From: Actinomycetes bacterium
GTDB lineage: Bacteria; Actinomycetota; Acidimicrobiia; Acidimicrobiales; JAJZXF01
Direction: 5' to 3'
DNA: 48,481 nucleotides
NCBI GenBank assembly: GCA_021802485.1
Contig: JAJZXF010000011.1
Location: 1 to 48,481, forward strand
The notes beneath the pieces were generated by a model. The model did not search any database and was not told where the DNA came from. It saw only the letters and a program-made list of their open reading frames with translations. This document shows positions 1,705-28,170 of this stretch, piece by piece. Position numbers and translations under genes: made by a program. Positions within the stretch are counted from its first letter, which is position 1; each line of letters starts with the position of its first letter.

Positions 1705-1826
1705 TAGGGGATTTCCCCGATGTTGTCCTTTCTCGACTCGGTCAGGCTACTTGTTTGTGGAGGTCGCCTAGCTCTCAGTTGTAGCGAGCGTCGCGACATG
1801 ACGAACAGACGAGTGAGGTATCTGCC

Positions 1827-4682
1827 ATGAGACTGCAGCGCAGCGTGAATGCGCTTATTCGTTCGCTCACCAGCACCGGGAATCGCTCTCGGGCCGTGCG
1901 GGTATCTCAAGAGGAGATGCGCGAGACGAGATCGAGCTGGAAGACAACCAGCCCTTCGCCGGTTGTCTTCCAGCGGGCAAGGAATAGCTTTGCGGTGCTC
2001 GTTGCCACGCTTGCGCTCTCACTTGCCAGCGTCATCGCTATTACTCAGCCTGCCACCGCAACTTCGGGGGGCTCGTGGTCGATCACGCCTACCCCGAACG
2101 CGGCTACCTCGGAATCAAATGCTCTCAATGGCATCTCGTGCGTCTCGGCGAGCTTCTGCGTCGCAGTTGGCCGCTACTACAACGGGACCGCTAACCAGAA
2201 CCTGGTCCTCACCTGGAACGGGAGCTCCTGGTCGCCAGAGTCCGCCGCGTCGTTCTCCACTTCCGCGTCCGAGTTCAACCAGCTTTCCGGTGTCTCGTGC
2301 GTCTCAGCAAGTTACTGCGTCGGGGTCGGATACCACTGGAACGGGACCGCTAACCAGAACCTGGTCCTCACCTGGAACGGGAGCTCCTGGTCCCTCGACT
2401 CCGCGACATCGCTGTCGACGTCTGCGTCACAGAACAACCTCCTCAACGCTGTCTCGTGCGTCTCAGCAAGTTACTGCGTCGCGACCGGGGAATACTTCAC
2501 AGGGACTGCGTATCAGAACCTGGTTCTCACCTGGAACGGGAGCTCCTGGTCACTCGACTCTGCACCGTCGCTGTCGACGTCCGCTTCGCAGAACAACCTC
2601 CTCAACGCTGTCTCGTGCGTCTCAGCAAGTTCCTGCGTCGCGACCGGGGACCATTGGAACGGGACTGCGTATCAGAACCTGGTTCTCACCTGGAACGGGA
2701 GCTCCTGGTCGCTCGACTCTGCCGCATCGCTGTCGTCGTCTTCATCACAGGACAACTTCCTTGACGGAATCTCGTGCGTCTCTTTTAGCTTCTGCGTGGC
2801 TGTTGGCAACTATTACAACGGGACTGAGTACCAGAACCTGGTTCTCACCTGGAACGGGAGTTCCTGGTCGCTCGACTCTGCCGCGTCGCTGTCGACTTCG
2901 GCGTCACAGCACAACAACCTCCAAAGCGTCTCATGCCCGACGGCAAGCTTCTGCGTGGCTGATGGCAACTATTACAACGGGACCGTGTACCAGAACCAGG
3001 TGCTCACATGGAATGGGAGCTCATGGTCACTCGACTCTGCCGCGTCGCTTTCGACTTTGGCATCACAGACCAATGTCCTCCTCGGCGTCTCGTGCTTCTC
3101 AGCGAGCTCCTGCGTCGGGGTCGGATACCACTGGAACGGGACTGTGTACCAGAACCTGGTGCTCACCTGGAATGGCAGCTCATGGTCACTCGACTCTGCA
3201 GCGTCGCTCTCCATGTCATTGTCACGAAACAACCACCTCTATGGCGTCTCGTGCGCATCCGCGAGCTTCTGCGTGGCTGTTGGTAGCTATTCCAACGGAA
3301 CAGTGGACCAGAACCTGGTGCTCACCTGGAACGGCAGCTCCTGGTCGCTCGACTCCGCAGCATCGCTGTCAACGTCTTCATCACAGTACAACGTTCTGAC
3401 CGGCGTCTCGTGTGCGAGCACGAGCTTCTGCGTGGCTGTTGGAGCCTATTCCAACGGAACAGTGAACCAGAACCTGGTGCTCACCTGGAACGGCAGCTCC
3501 TGGTCGCTCGACTCCGCAGCATCGCTGTCAACGTCTTCATCACAGGACAACTACCTCGACGGCGTCTCGTGCGTATCTGCGAGCTTCTGCGTGGCCGCTG
3601 GAGCCTATTACAACGGAACAGTGGACCAGAACCTGGTGCTCACCTGGAACGGGACCTCCTGGTCGCTCGACTCTGCAGCGTCGCTCTCCACTTCGGCATC
3701 ACAGGACAATGCCCTCGACGGTCTTTCGTGTGCTTCAACAAGTTTCTGTGTTGCCGCCGGCTACTACACAAAGAGCGTTGCGGCGAACCAGAACCTGCTG
3801 CTCACGTGGAATGGCAGCTCCTGGTCGCTCGACTCCGCCGCGTCGCTTTCGACGTCCGCATCACAGGACAACTTCCTAAACGGCATCTCGTGCGTATCTG
3901 CGAGCTTCTGCGTGGCCGACGGATCCCACGCAGGCTCGTCCGCCTACCAGAACATCATGCTGACCTGGAACGGCAGCGTGTGGTCACTGGATGCAGCAGC
4001 GTCGCTTTCAACTTCGACCCTCCAGGGCAACGAGCTTAATGGCGTCTCGTGTATCTCAGCGAGTTCCTGCGTCGCTGCCGGCTCATTCAAGAACGGGGGG
4101 GCAACGTGGCAATCCCTGCTTCTCACCTGGAACGGGACCTCCTGGTCGCTCGACTCAGCAGCGTCGCTTTCGACGTCCGCATCGCAGTACAACGACCTCA
4201 AATCCGTCTCATGTGCATCAGCGTATTCCTGCGTGGCCGCCGGCTACTACGACGGGACCGTGCACCAGACCCTGGCACTTTCGTTCAACGCGACCCCTCC
4301 ACCCATCCACGCTGGATACTGGTTCGTCGCATCCGATGGAGGCATCTTCTCCTTCGGCAACGGACACTTCTACGGCTCGATGGGTGCGAAGCCGCTGAAC
4401 AAGCCGATCGTCGGTATGGCGTCTACCCCTGACGGAAAGGGGTATTGGTTCGTCGCATCCGATGGAGGCATCTTCAGCTTCGGGGATGCTCACTTCTACG
4501 GCTCGATGGGTGCGAAGCCGCTGAACAAGCCGATCGTCGGTATGGCGTCTACCCCTGACGGAAAGGGGTATTGGTTCGTCGCATCCGATGGAGGCATCTT
4601 CAGCTTCGGGGATGCTCACTTCTACGGCTCGATGGGTGCGAAGCCGCTGAACAAGCCGATCGTCGGTATGGCTGGCGCCTAA
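1827..4682 (+). CDS. large secreted repeat protein: 14 Cys-pair repeats plus three 42-aa SDGG repeats
   Basis: Hydrophobic signal segment [24 protein letters not shown], then 14 copies of (L-x-x-V/I/L-SC-x5-C-V-A/G-x-G ... TWNGSSWS), then [15 protein letters not shown] repeats. The start may be ATG 1827 or ATG 1917. Confidence 0.85.
1937..1973 (+). other. perfect 13-bp inverted repeat with 11-nt loop near the 5' end of the repeat-protein gene
   Basis: CTGGAAGACAACC (1937-1949) / GGTTGTCTTCCAG (1961-1973). Confidence 0.85.
4315..4675 (+). repeat. 126-bp (42-aa) in-frame repeats, almost identical at DNA level
   Basis: [42 protein letters not shown] x3; e.g. gacggaaaggggtattgg recurs at 4431 and 4557. 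Confidence 0.9.
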
Positions 4683-23521: not shown

Positions 23522-25603
23522 CTACGGCGTAGGCGCCATTGAGAACACCGGCGCGTCAAGGGTGTGACCTCCCATCGAGCCAAAGAACCTTGCATCGCCA
23601 AAGGCGAAGACCCCTCCGTCGGACGCCACGAGCCAGTAGCCCTTGCCGTTCGGGGTGGTCGCTATGCCTACGATGGGGGCATTCAGGTGCCGTCCGCCCA
23701 TCGAGCCATAGAACCTTGCATCGCCAAAGGCGAAGACCCCTCCGTCGGATGCCACGAGCCAGTAGCCCTTGCCATCCGGCGTAGGCGCCATAGCTGCTAT
23801 CGGTGCGTTCAGGTGCCTTCCGCCCATCGAGCCATAGAAGGGCGCATGAAAGCTGAACATGCCGCCATCTGACGCGACGAGCCAGTAACCGCCGGTGCAG
23901 TAGTCGCTCGACATGGCCTCCACCGGGGCCTTCAGGGGCCTCCCGCCCATCGATCCGTGAAACACAGCGTCTCCAAAGCTGAAGATACCGCCATCCGATG
24001 CTACGAGCCAGTAGCCCTGCTGACCAGGAGTTGGCGACATGCCAACGACTGGCTTGTTGAGGTGCCTTCCACCCATCGAACCGAAAAAGCCCGCATTGCC
24101 GTAGGCGAAAACACCTCCATCTGCTGCACCAAGCCAGTAGCCGAGACCGTGAAATGTCGTGGCCATCGCCACTATCGGAGCGTTCAAGGGCTTTCCACCC
24201 ATCGAGCCGTAGTAGTGCGCAGCACCGAACGAGAAGATGCCACCATCGGCAGCTGTCTCATAGTAGCCGGTCCCCCCAGGTGGCGGGACGACAGGTGACC
24301 CGGTCACATCACCGCTCGCCTGCATAGCAAACGGCTCTGAAGCGTTAGCGTTGGCACCGGTTCCCCCCGCTACGCCAGAGAGAACACAAAACGACACCGA
24401 CGGACACGACACCCCGACGGTGTATCCCGGGTTCTTGGTCTTTGCGAAACTTGTCACAGGTTCGACAGACCATGCGTTGCCGTTGTAGGTCTCTATGAAT
24501 GACCCCTCAGACAAAAGCGGTCCGTCAGCTACGCACGAGGTCGATGAGGCGCACGACACGCCAAAGAGGTAATTCCTCAACAAACCCATAACATTCGGGG
24601 TAGAGGCCACCTCCCAAGAACAGCCCTTGTAGACCTCGATGACACTCTGCCAGTGGCTTGTACTTTGACTAAAGCCCACTGCGACACAGAATGTGGTGCT
24701 CGTGCACGAGACACTGAAAAGCTCATACCCAGACGGCGTCCCCTGGGCCGGAGTGAGCGACCAATCCCTGCCGTTGTAAGTCTCCATCATGGGTTCGATT
24801 CCGGCGGCATTTTCATTTATCCCCACCGCTGCACAGAACGTCACCGATACACACGACACGCTGAACAACTGAGAACTGCCGGCCTGCACCGGACCTGTCG
24901 TCATAGCCCATACCCTACCGTTGTATACCTCGATAATGGGCTTGAAGTTCGCGACGCGGCCTGAGAAGCCAACCGCAACGCAAAACGTAGTAGTCACGCA
25001 CGACACGCCGTTCAGGTAGCTGTTTGTTCCCCCGACATCAGGGCTCGACAACACGGACCATGACGAACCGTTGTATACCTCGATGAGCGTATCGACGAAG
25101 CTGGGTTTCGAAGTTAGAGCTATAGACCCATAGGTGGTTCCAACTGCAACACAGAATGTTGTGGAGATACACGACACGCCATCCAGCCCATTGTAGTCAC
25201 TACTCGAGACACCACTCGGCTCTGGGATCGAAACGAGCGACCACTTGGAGCCGTTGTAGGTCTCGACGACCGCATAAACACCCTGTTGGCCGGTGTTCGG
25301 GTTCGGAGGGAAAAATGCAGAGCCGACCATGACGCAAAAGGAGCTACTCACGCATGAAACACCGTGGAACGACTGGTCATTTACCCCGATGAAAACGGTT
25401 GGATCATATGGAAAAGGACCGAAAGCAGTATTCTCCCCCGATGGGAGGGGCTGTACGGTATCGACCTTCCAGAGGCTCGCCTGGCTAGTGAACACGCTCG
25501 CTGTCACAGCCGGGATGCCAGCAGCAAGTGTCACTGCACCTATCGAGAGCACCGCTACCAAGAGTCGTAGGAGCAGGCAGCCGAGGAACCGTGATCTCCT
25601 CAT
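23522..25603 (-). CDS. secreted repeat protein: 7 Cys-pair repeats plus 6 SDGG repeats
   Basis: Signal peptide MRRSRFLGCLLLRLLVAVLSIGAVTLAAGIPAVTA from ATG 25603. Seven SVSC-x5-C units, then GYWLVASDGGVFAFGDARFYGSMGGRHLNAPIVGIATTPNGK units. Confidence 0.85.
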   Translation of the reverse strand: MRRSRFLGCLLLRLLVAVLSIGAVTLAAGIPAVTASVFTSQASLWKVDTVQPLPSGENTAFGPFPYDPTVFIGVNDQSFHGVSCVSSSFCVMVGSAFFPPNPNTGQQGVYAVVETYNGSKWSLVSIPEPSGVSSSDYNGLDGVSCISTTFCVAVGTTYGSIALTSKPSFVDTLIEVYNGSSWSVLSSPDVGGTNSYLNGVSCVTTTFCVAVGFSGRVANFKPIIEVYNGRVWAMTTGPVQAGSSQLFSVSCVSVTFCAAVGINENAAGIEPMMETYNGRDWSLTPAQGTPSGYELFSVSCTSTTFCVAVGFSQSTSHWQSVIEVYKGCSWEVASTPNVMGLLRNYLFGVSCASSTSCVADGPLLSEGSFIETYNGNAWSVEPVTSFAKTKNPGYTVGVSCPSVSFCVLSGVAGGTGANANASEPFAMQASGDVTGSPVVPPPGGTGYYETAADGGIFSFGAAHYYGSMGGKPLNAPIVAMATTFHGLGYWLGAADGGVFAYGNAGFFGSMGGRHLNKPVVGMSPTPGQQGYWLVASDGGIFSFGDAVFHGSMGGRPLKAPVEAMSSDYCTGGYWLVASDGGMFSFHAPFYGSMGGRHLNAPIAAMAPTPDGKGYWLVASDGGVFAFGDARFYGSMGGRHLNAPIVGIATTPNGKGYWLVASDGGVFAFGDARFFGSMGGHTLDAPVFSMAPTP

Positions 25604-25607
25604 CTCG

Positions 25608-28023
25608 CTAGCTCCACTCTTCCGCAAGCGTCTGGGGGATCTGGGTAGCTGATGAGAAGTTGGTGGTAAAGGCGGAGCTGTTCGCTTCATACCCGAGACC
25701 ACTACAGCTCGTCGAGCTCGCGCACGACACACCGTAAAGCACATTGTTTCCCGACCCTACGTCGGGACTCGAAACGATGGACCACGACGAGCCGTTGTAC
25801 TCCTCCGTGAGAGTGCCAGTAACTCCGGTGATCGTATCCGCAGCATACTCGCCGGTTGCCATGCAGAAGTTGGAAGACACACACGATACGTCCGTGAGCG
25901 CGTTCTGGCCGCTGCCAGAGTCGACAGAGGTCTGCTCGGACCACGAGGAGCCGTTGTACGCCTCCACGAGTGCCTGCTCGACCCCTGAGGAGTCAACGTA
26001 ATTGCCGACTGCCTCACAAGACGTAGACGATGCAGACGATGCACACGATATGCCCATCAGCATGCTGCCGGCCGTGCTCGGGCTCGTAGGGCTGTTAGAA
26101 CTCCAGGAGCTTCCGTTGTAATACTCTGTGAGGACGCTCTCGGTCGGGGGGCTGAGTGATGCGAAGTACATCCCGACCGCGACGCAACTCGTTGAGCTCG
26201 TGCACGAGATGTCAAAGAGGGTGTCGCCGTAGGAACCCTGATTCGCAGGCGTGACGGTCGTCCAGGACGAGCCGTTGTAGACCACAGCAAGGGTCTGGGT
26301 CTGGGTGCCCGAGCTAGTCGATTCAAGGTAGGAGCCAACCGCAACACAGCTTGTCGAACTCGCGCACGACACGCCGTCCAGCGCGTTCTCCCCAGCCGAG
26401 TTCGCTGGGTTCGAAAGCCCCGTGACCTCGCTCCAGGAGGTGCCGTTGTAAGTCTCGATGAGCATCTGTTGGACGTTGCTCGAGTCAACGTAATAGCCGA
26501 CTGCGACACAAAACGTCGACGACTTACACGAGATGCCGTAGAGATCGCTCTGCGTCGTAATCTGCGCTGGAGAAAGAGACCACGAGGTCGGTGTATAGGA
26601 CTCGGCGAGACTGAACGCCACGCTGTAGCGGCCCACGGTGAGACACGACGACGATGACACGCACGCTACGCCAAAGAGGCGATTGCCATTGACTGTCTGG
26701 GATGAGCTCGAGAGGCCTGATGGAGAAGACCAGCTGGAGCCGTTGTAGATCTCCGCCATTGTCGCAGAACTCAATGTCAAGGGGTCTTGGCTCCAATAGC
26801 CAGCGCTCGCACAGAACGATGCAGACACACACGACACCCCGTAGAGGTAGTTTGTCTGGGACGAAGAGGTATCGGTAGAAGCTGACGCAGTCCAGCTCGA
26901 GCCGTCGTAGGTATCTGCAAGGGTCTGTGCGACGCCTGCCGAGGCGATGTAATAGCCTACCGCAGCACAGAACGAAGTGGACGTACACGACACCCCGTAG
27001 AGGTAGTTGTTTCCCGACCCGGAATTCGGGCTCGAGGCGATGGACCAGGACAAGCCGTTGTACTCCTCTACAAGGGTCTGTGCGACACCAGAAGAGTCCA
27101 CGTAGTTGCCGACTGCTTCACAGAACGAAGTGGACGTACACGACACCCCGTAGAGGTAGTTGTTTCCCGACCCGGAATTCGGACTCGAGACGATGGACCA
27201 CGACGAGCCGTTGTACTCCTCAACGAGGGTCTGTGCGACGCCAGAAGAGTCCACGTAGTTGCCGACTGCTTCACAGAACGAAGTGGACGTACACGACACC
27301 CCGTAGAGGTAGTTGTTTCCCGACCCTGCGTTCGGGCTCGATCCAATCACAGGACTCGTCGCTGACGGGTAACCAATGAGGGTTTGTGCGACGCCAGAGG
27401 AGTCCATGTAATAGCCAACCGCTGGGCAGAAATCAACTGAGTAGACGCACGACACCCCGTAGAAGAAGCCATCACCGGGTGGCTCATTGCCGAAGCTGGC
27501 AAGCAGACTGCCAGATGAGCCGCTAGGGTTACTATTCCACGCAAAGACCTGGTAGCTGCTTGGGCTTAAGGAAGTGTCGTAGTAGTACCCGACAGACCAG
27601 CAATAGCTCGAGGACGAGCACGAGGTCGCGTGAAACGAATTGTCCACGTACGAGCTGTTCTTGCCAAGCTCGTCAGGGGTAGCCTGAGGCTGGCTCCAGG
27701 ATCCGAATCCGCTGGAATTGACCGAGTACCCACCAGCAAGGGTCTGACGCACACCGTAGCGACCGGTAGCGATACAGGTCGACGAGGAGCTGCACGAGAC
27801 CCGGTGAAACAAGTTGCTCTGGGTGGTACTCGATGACTCGCTGCTCGCATTTGCACTCGAAACAACGCTCCAGGACGGCACAGCAGCAAAGGCTAGGCCA
27901 GCGTCAGCCAGCACCACAGCCAAGCCAAGTACCCCGGCAGCTAGTAGGACCCCCCCCCCGGCTCAGGTTCCGCACGGTCCCCCCGATGCGTCCCATAACT
28001 CTACGTCCCGTAGCACGTCCCAT
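25608..28023 (-). CDS. secreted Cys-pair repeat protein (14 repeats), out of frame with its start because of a G10 tract
   Basis: Main ORF 25608-27923. True start proposed at ATG 28023 with perfect AAGGAGG SD at 28034-28028. G10 at 27950-27959 breaks the frame; G9 gives MGRATGRRVMGRIGGTVRNLSRGGVLLAAGVLGLAVVLADAGLAFAAVPSW. Confidence 0.75.
26968..27340 (-). repeat. 153-bp (51-aa) near-identical tandem coding repeats
   Basis: cagaacgaagtggacgtacacgacaccccgtagaggtagttgtttcccgaccc recurs at 26968, 27121 and 27274 (period 153). Confidence 0.9.
27950..27959. repeat. homopolymer of 10 C (10 G on the coding strand)
   Basis: gga-cccccccccc-ggct read directly. Confidence 0.95.
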
Positions 28024-28140
28024 AGCTCCTCCTTCCTGCCACGAGAGCAAGGCTCCTGCAGCAAAGGCAAGTACCCGCCAACACTGCTCGATGTGAGCAT
28101 TCCAGCAACCACCCGGGCCTGCCCACTTCGAGCTGAAACT

Positions 28141-28170
28141 ATTGTACGCGCCTCATGACGCTAATGTCAA
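28141..28170 (-). promoter_or_regulatory. sigma70-type promoter driving the 28023-23522 operon
   Basis: Minus strand: TTGACA (28170-28165), 18-nt spacer, TACAAT (28146-28141). Confidence 0.7.

Follow-up and report, generated by a model that had tools for sequence, protein, structure and literature searches.

Poly-G contingency loci are best known from bacteria adapted to a host, and host immunity or attachment is the usual explanation for them there; poly-G/C tracts also form phase-variable promoters of the porA and fetA type in Neisseria. The closest described counterparts of the locus considered here are the sortase-pilus loci bbr_0113 and bbr_1889 of Bifidobacterium breve UCC2003, in which an ORF carrying a Sec signal and an ORF for the pilin body are joined at a G-tract (Penno et al. 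2022, PMC9187656). The B. breve body ORF has no start, the sequenced state is OFF and the productive change is -1+3n; at the G10 locus, which is switched ON by -1, G9 accounted for 6.5% in culture, and G-tracts in promoter spacers are also mentioned for that work (PMC9187656). Phase variants that arise through homopolymeric-tract indels and are associated with ESX-1 are described for Mycobacterium tuberculosis (PMC11898584), and a survey of poly-A/T put forward homopolymeric tracts at the 5′ end of genes as frameshift switches of a general kind (Orsi et al. 2010, PMC2831843). Among open-licence papers we found none on phase variation in Acidimicrobiia or Acidimicrobiales.

The locus lies on the minus strand of the window, by which we mean the whole stretch of 48,481 nucleotides that was analysed. 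Like the B. breve pili, it has an actinobacterial poly-G tract that would join a Sec-signal leader to a body ORF without a good start of its own, and it was sequenced OFF. In contrast, the B. breve loci belong to gut commensals, encode LPXTG pilins together with a sortase and have had their switching measured, whereas the window gene comes from what appears to be an uncultured acidimicrobial lineage and encodes an apparently unanchored repeat protein, with a switch that is predicted from sequence. The placement in Acidimicrobiia follows the closest relatives of the aspartokinase encoded nearby. The M. tuberculosis case is likewise one of actinobacterial switching by homopolymeric-tract indels, although those tracts are not in signal peptides of secreted repeat proteins (PMC11898584). 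As in the survey of Orsi et al. 2010 (PMC2831843), the window tract is near the 5′ end of its gene and the frameshift leads to a very short product, but it is a poly-G rather than a poly-A/T tract. Our reading is that the window locus is probably a poly-G simple-sequence contingency (phase-variation) locus that was assembled in its OFF state (Table 1). The first-pass annotation had regarded a switch of this kind, if real, as notable in an actinobacterium; since poly-G switches are already established in B. breve (PMC9187656), the case is less unprecedented than that implied, in that the mechanism and the architecture were known and the lineage and the target protein are new.

Table 1. Features of the poly-G locus, in positions of the window
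Feature	Position	Strand	Remark
Sigma70-type promoter TTGACA-18-TACAAT (predicted)	28141..28170	-	11/12 consensus; 0.1 expected in shuffles
Shine-Dalgarno sequence AAGGAGG	28028..28034	-	5′ of ATG 28023
Leader ORF as assembled (10 G), 39 aa, truncated OFF product	27904..28023	-	Ends at TGA 27906-27904
G10 tract, proposed slippage site	27950..27959	-	Full-length gene at 6/9/12 G
TGA closing the repeat frame, 3 bases before the tract (upstream side)	27963..27965	-	Leaves TTG 27923 as the sole start
14-repeat ORF, 771 aa from TTG, predicted beta-propeller blades	25608..27923	-	Body of the secreted protein
Complete ON-phase gene (804 aa with 9 G), Sec signal peptide and repeat body	25608..28023	-	In silico G change

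The tract consists of exactly ten G and stands within the signal-peptide codons, between the predicted promoter, Shine-Dalgarno sequence and ATG on one side and the 14-repeat ORF on the other. As assembled, the frame from the ATG stops after 39 aa. A TGA on the leader side of the tract closes the repeat frame, which is left with the TTG at 27923 as its sole start. When the number of G was changed in silico, 6, 9 and 12 G gave products of 803, 804 and 805 aa from the ATG and the remaining lengths within 5-13 G gave 25-40 aa, so that the single-G change from 10 to 9 takes the predicted product from 39 to 804 aa. Because full length needs 6, 9 or 12 G, the gene was assembled OFF. The N terminus predicted at 9 G has a net charge of +6, a hydrophobic core LAAGVLGLAVVL and A-x-A sites; its n-region is encoded upstream and its h-region downstream of the tract, which means that the signal peptide itself is split by the tract. 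The TTG was rejected as the true start, having neither a basic n-region nor a ribosome site. On all of these points, from the ribosome site and ATG ahead of the tract to the early stop at 10 G, the joining of signal peptide and repeats at 9 G and the OFF state of the sequenced form, the first-pass annotation had read the locus as we do.

G10 is the longest mononucleotide run of the window, the runner-up being 7, and runs of nine or more G occur in 7 places across the 2.86-Mb draft genome (a cluster on C53 counted once). Since 5 of 100 dinucleotide-shuffled versions of the window also contained a G10, the run by itself is just mildly surprising and its position is more telling. In the mechanism that we propose, replication slippage would add or remove G in the tract, the length of which may vary in living populations. 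At 9 G (also at 6 or 12), translation from the ATG would give the repeat protein in full, presumably exported by Sec when ON, and at other lengths it would end after 25-40 aa with no protein body. The 10 G of the sequenced majority would then be an OFF state from which the loss of one base leads to ON, and switching may be of some benefit.

Pfam and PDB sequence searches with the repeat body, in which we counted 14 motifs, returned no match. An AlphaFold model of the protein is all-beta with repeated four-stranded units, at low confidence (mean pLDDT 57), and almost all Foldseek matches to this low-confidence model were beta-propellers, with GH74, sortilin and YCF48 at the top (E about 1e-6 to 1e-8; TM 0.2-0.5). 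The earlier description of the product as a surface protein was not supported: we sought an LPXTG motif in the window ORF and a later membrane-like or hydrophobic segment in the protein and found neither, so that 'secreted', as a prediction, is better supported than 'surface-anchored'. Two more members of the repeat family are present in the window, at 23522-25744 (minus strand) and 1785-4679 (plus strand), both with starts that have no poly-G; the protein of the former also carries YWLVASDGGxFxFGDAxFxGSMGG repeats.

A protein search recovered many family members in the same genome (G000) and in a sister species (G001, the one other genome of the genus, one genome per species being compared). 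All homologs came from this search; blastn with the 5′ region across 40 relatives found no related sequence, and a plasmid search and a contig scan with the repeat protein found no relatives. Two full-length homologs, 42-44% identical to the window protein, have a tract of the same kind in their signal-peptide codons: a G8 in the same genome (C56:17217-17224), between MRKRAFPRSIATAAIAASALLTL and ASATSPSW, and a G10 in the sister species (G001:C94:2449-2458), between MAHATSVTRASAKALAFAGSVLLTATAAVFL and IASASSPSW. The two are just 56% identical to each other and so are not close isolates. Each of the three genes is full length at 6, 9 or 12 G only, and the assembled lengths of 10 (window), 8 (C56) and 10 (C94) are all OFF and fall on both sides of 9; the tract has thus been retained with differing length, and no ON copy of the family was seen. 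The remaining family members with visible starts have no poly-G tract there. With about 35 repeat-family genes (counted by eye, approximate) and 52 tracts of G8 or longer in the two genomes, 0.05 such coincidences would be expected by a rough Poisson estimate, and P is about 0.001 for the two beyond the window gene. Homologs that share the kind of tract, would be ON at 9 G and are all OFF are not easily accounted for by one sequence error or by the death of a gene, and they lend support to the candidate phase-variation switch of the first-pass annotation. In an unrelated secreted protein of the same genome (C21:1939-1946, minus strand; L174), a G8 in the signal-peptide codons is in frame (ON).

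Downstream of the tract the three ORFs run for 753-774 codons without a stop, and dN/dS among them is 0.24-0.35, a rough value with synonymous sites near saturation. Open frames and such dN/dS values argue against dead genes and fit genes that are in use at least part of the time.

The main rival explanation is an error of consensus or assembly, in which case the tract would in truth be fixed at 9 G and the protein constitutive. Homopolymers are error-prone in short reads, those of 8-10 G included, poly-G sequence that looks like an artefact surrounds an N gap on C53 of this draft, and the B. breve study cautions against trusting the annotated lengths of G-tracts (PMC9187656). We nevertheless consider such an error unlikely, as it would need three genes in two separate assemblies to be wrong, and in different directions around 9, and tract-free members of the family show no frame split of this sort. 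The three tracts do not all deviate from 9 by +1, their lengths being 10, 8 and 10. It is very unlikely that the frameshift is a recent loss-of-function mutation in a gene on its way out: the sequenced state cannot make a protein with a signal peptide, and the sister species has the cyclophilin neighbour but lacks the window gene at the syntenic site after it, yet all 771 codons are free of stops with dN/dS well under 1, the promoter and ribosome site are intact and the homologs share the OFF-by-tract state. Homopolymers can cause transcript slippage. That RNA polymerase or the ribosome slips at the G run, and some full-length protein is made from the 10-G gene with no change in the DNA, is most improbable even so, for although the tract joins two overlapping frames and the downstream ORF is conserved, the three homologs would need shifts of -1, +1 and -1 where a programmed frameshift is expected to be one-directional, and the tested B. 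breve case was ascribed to replication slippage in DNA (PMC9187656).

Elsewhere in the two genomes, several long poly-G tracts fall between the TTGAC and TAnnnT of likely promoters, as in the Neisseria porA and fetA type, and the genes behind them have N termini resembling export signals; the tracts on C65, C95 and C135 gave no clear assignment. The lineage and the genes differ from those of Neisseria, the effect of the spacers on expression is a prediction, and the window's own tract is coding and not part of a promoter. In the genome of the window, one promoter (C56:58378-58405, minus strand; L226) reads TTGACA-N7-G9-TACCCT, with the G9 at C56:58384, and the ortholog of its gene in the sister species (61% aa identity) has a G10 spacer (G001:C182:4759-4788, minus strand; L225); with a -35/-10 spacer that is mostly poly-G, these orthologous secreted-protein genes have a candidate for a phase-variable promoter that is kept across the genus. 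A G17 follows TTGACG, with no clear -10, at C68:9271-9287 (L158), and its ortholog in the sister species is a G9 (G001:C50:26013-26021; L173); both tracts are intergenic, follow a TTGAC box and lie downstream of a conserved gene, and their upstream flanks are 84% identical. At C53:13552-13676 (L160) a scaffold gap lies within a very long poly-G region that is situated between TTGACT and TAATCT before the gene of a secreted protein, and assembly of this promoter tract probably failed.

Promoters of this kind are also present in further genera of the order. Among its 397 genomes examined, 15 had matches to the promoter-spacer pattern, 18 in all, whereas the reversed control had 5 matches from 3 genomes; about two thirds of the 18 precede genes with signal-peptide-like starts, as judged by eye. 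In two genomes of the order (L217 and L220) the 1,224-bp upstream flank is 99.8% identical, yet the tracts are G13 and G12, which suggests that promoter poly-G changes length faster than its surroundings. Downstream of these two tracts, identity between the genes is only 84% (over 747 bp), so that divergence changes sharply at the promoter. One genome (G098) has three promoters of the form TTGACA/poly-G spacer/TACnTT, with G11, G16 and G10 (L223, L230 and L231). An unbiased order-wide sample of exact-G11 tracts was heterogeneous, with many low-complexity or assembly-junk sequences and a few percent with promoter architecture, and a promoter role for all long poly-G tracts of the order is thereby ruled out.

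The repair genes of the draft, which is 97% complete, include two MutS-like proteins that have domain V only, and neither NucS nor a MutS with the mismatch-recognition domain was found in it. Such a gene set would agree with a weak correction of indels in the tracts, although genes missing from a draft are no proof.

Taken as a prediction, the window gene is a credible phase-variable gene that is OFF in the assembly, with a known mechanism in a new lineage and acting on a new target protein. It is possible, and we propose it tentatively, that Acidimicrobiia have a lineage-wide poly-G phase-variable secretome that works through signal-peptide frameshift tracts and -35/-10 spacer tracts in presumably free-living, environmental bacteria, where switching would serve something other than escape from host immunity. 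Environmental metagenomes are where this lineage is known from, and its target proteins form a large family of secreted repeat proteins. If mixtures of tract length prove true, the locus would be a non-host case of stochastic surface or secretome diversity, of possible use in phage avoidance, aggregation or mineral attachment, and seemingly broken genes for secreted proteins in metagenome assemblies would be explained as OFF phases.
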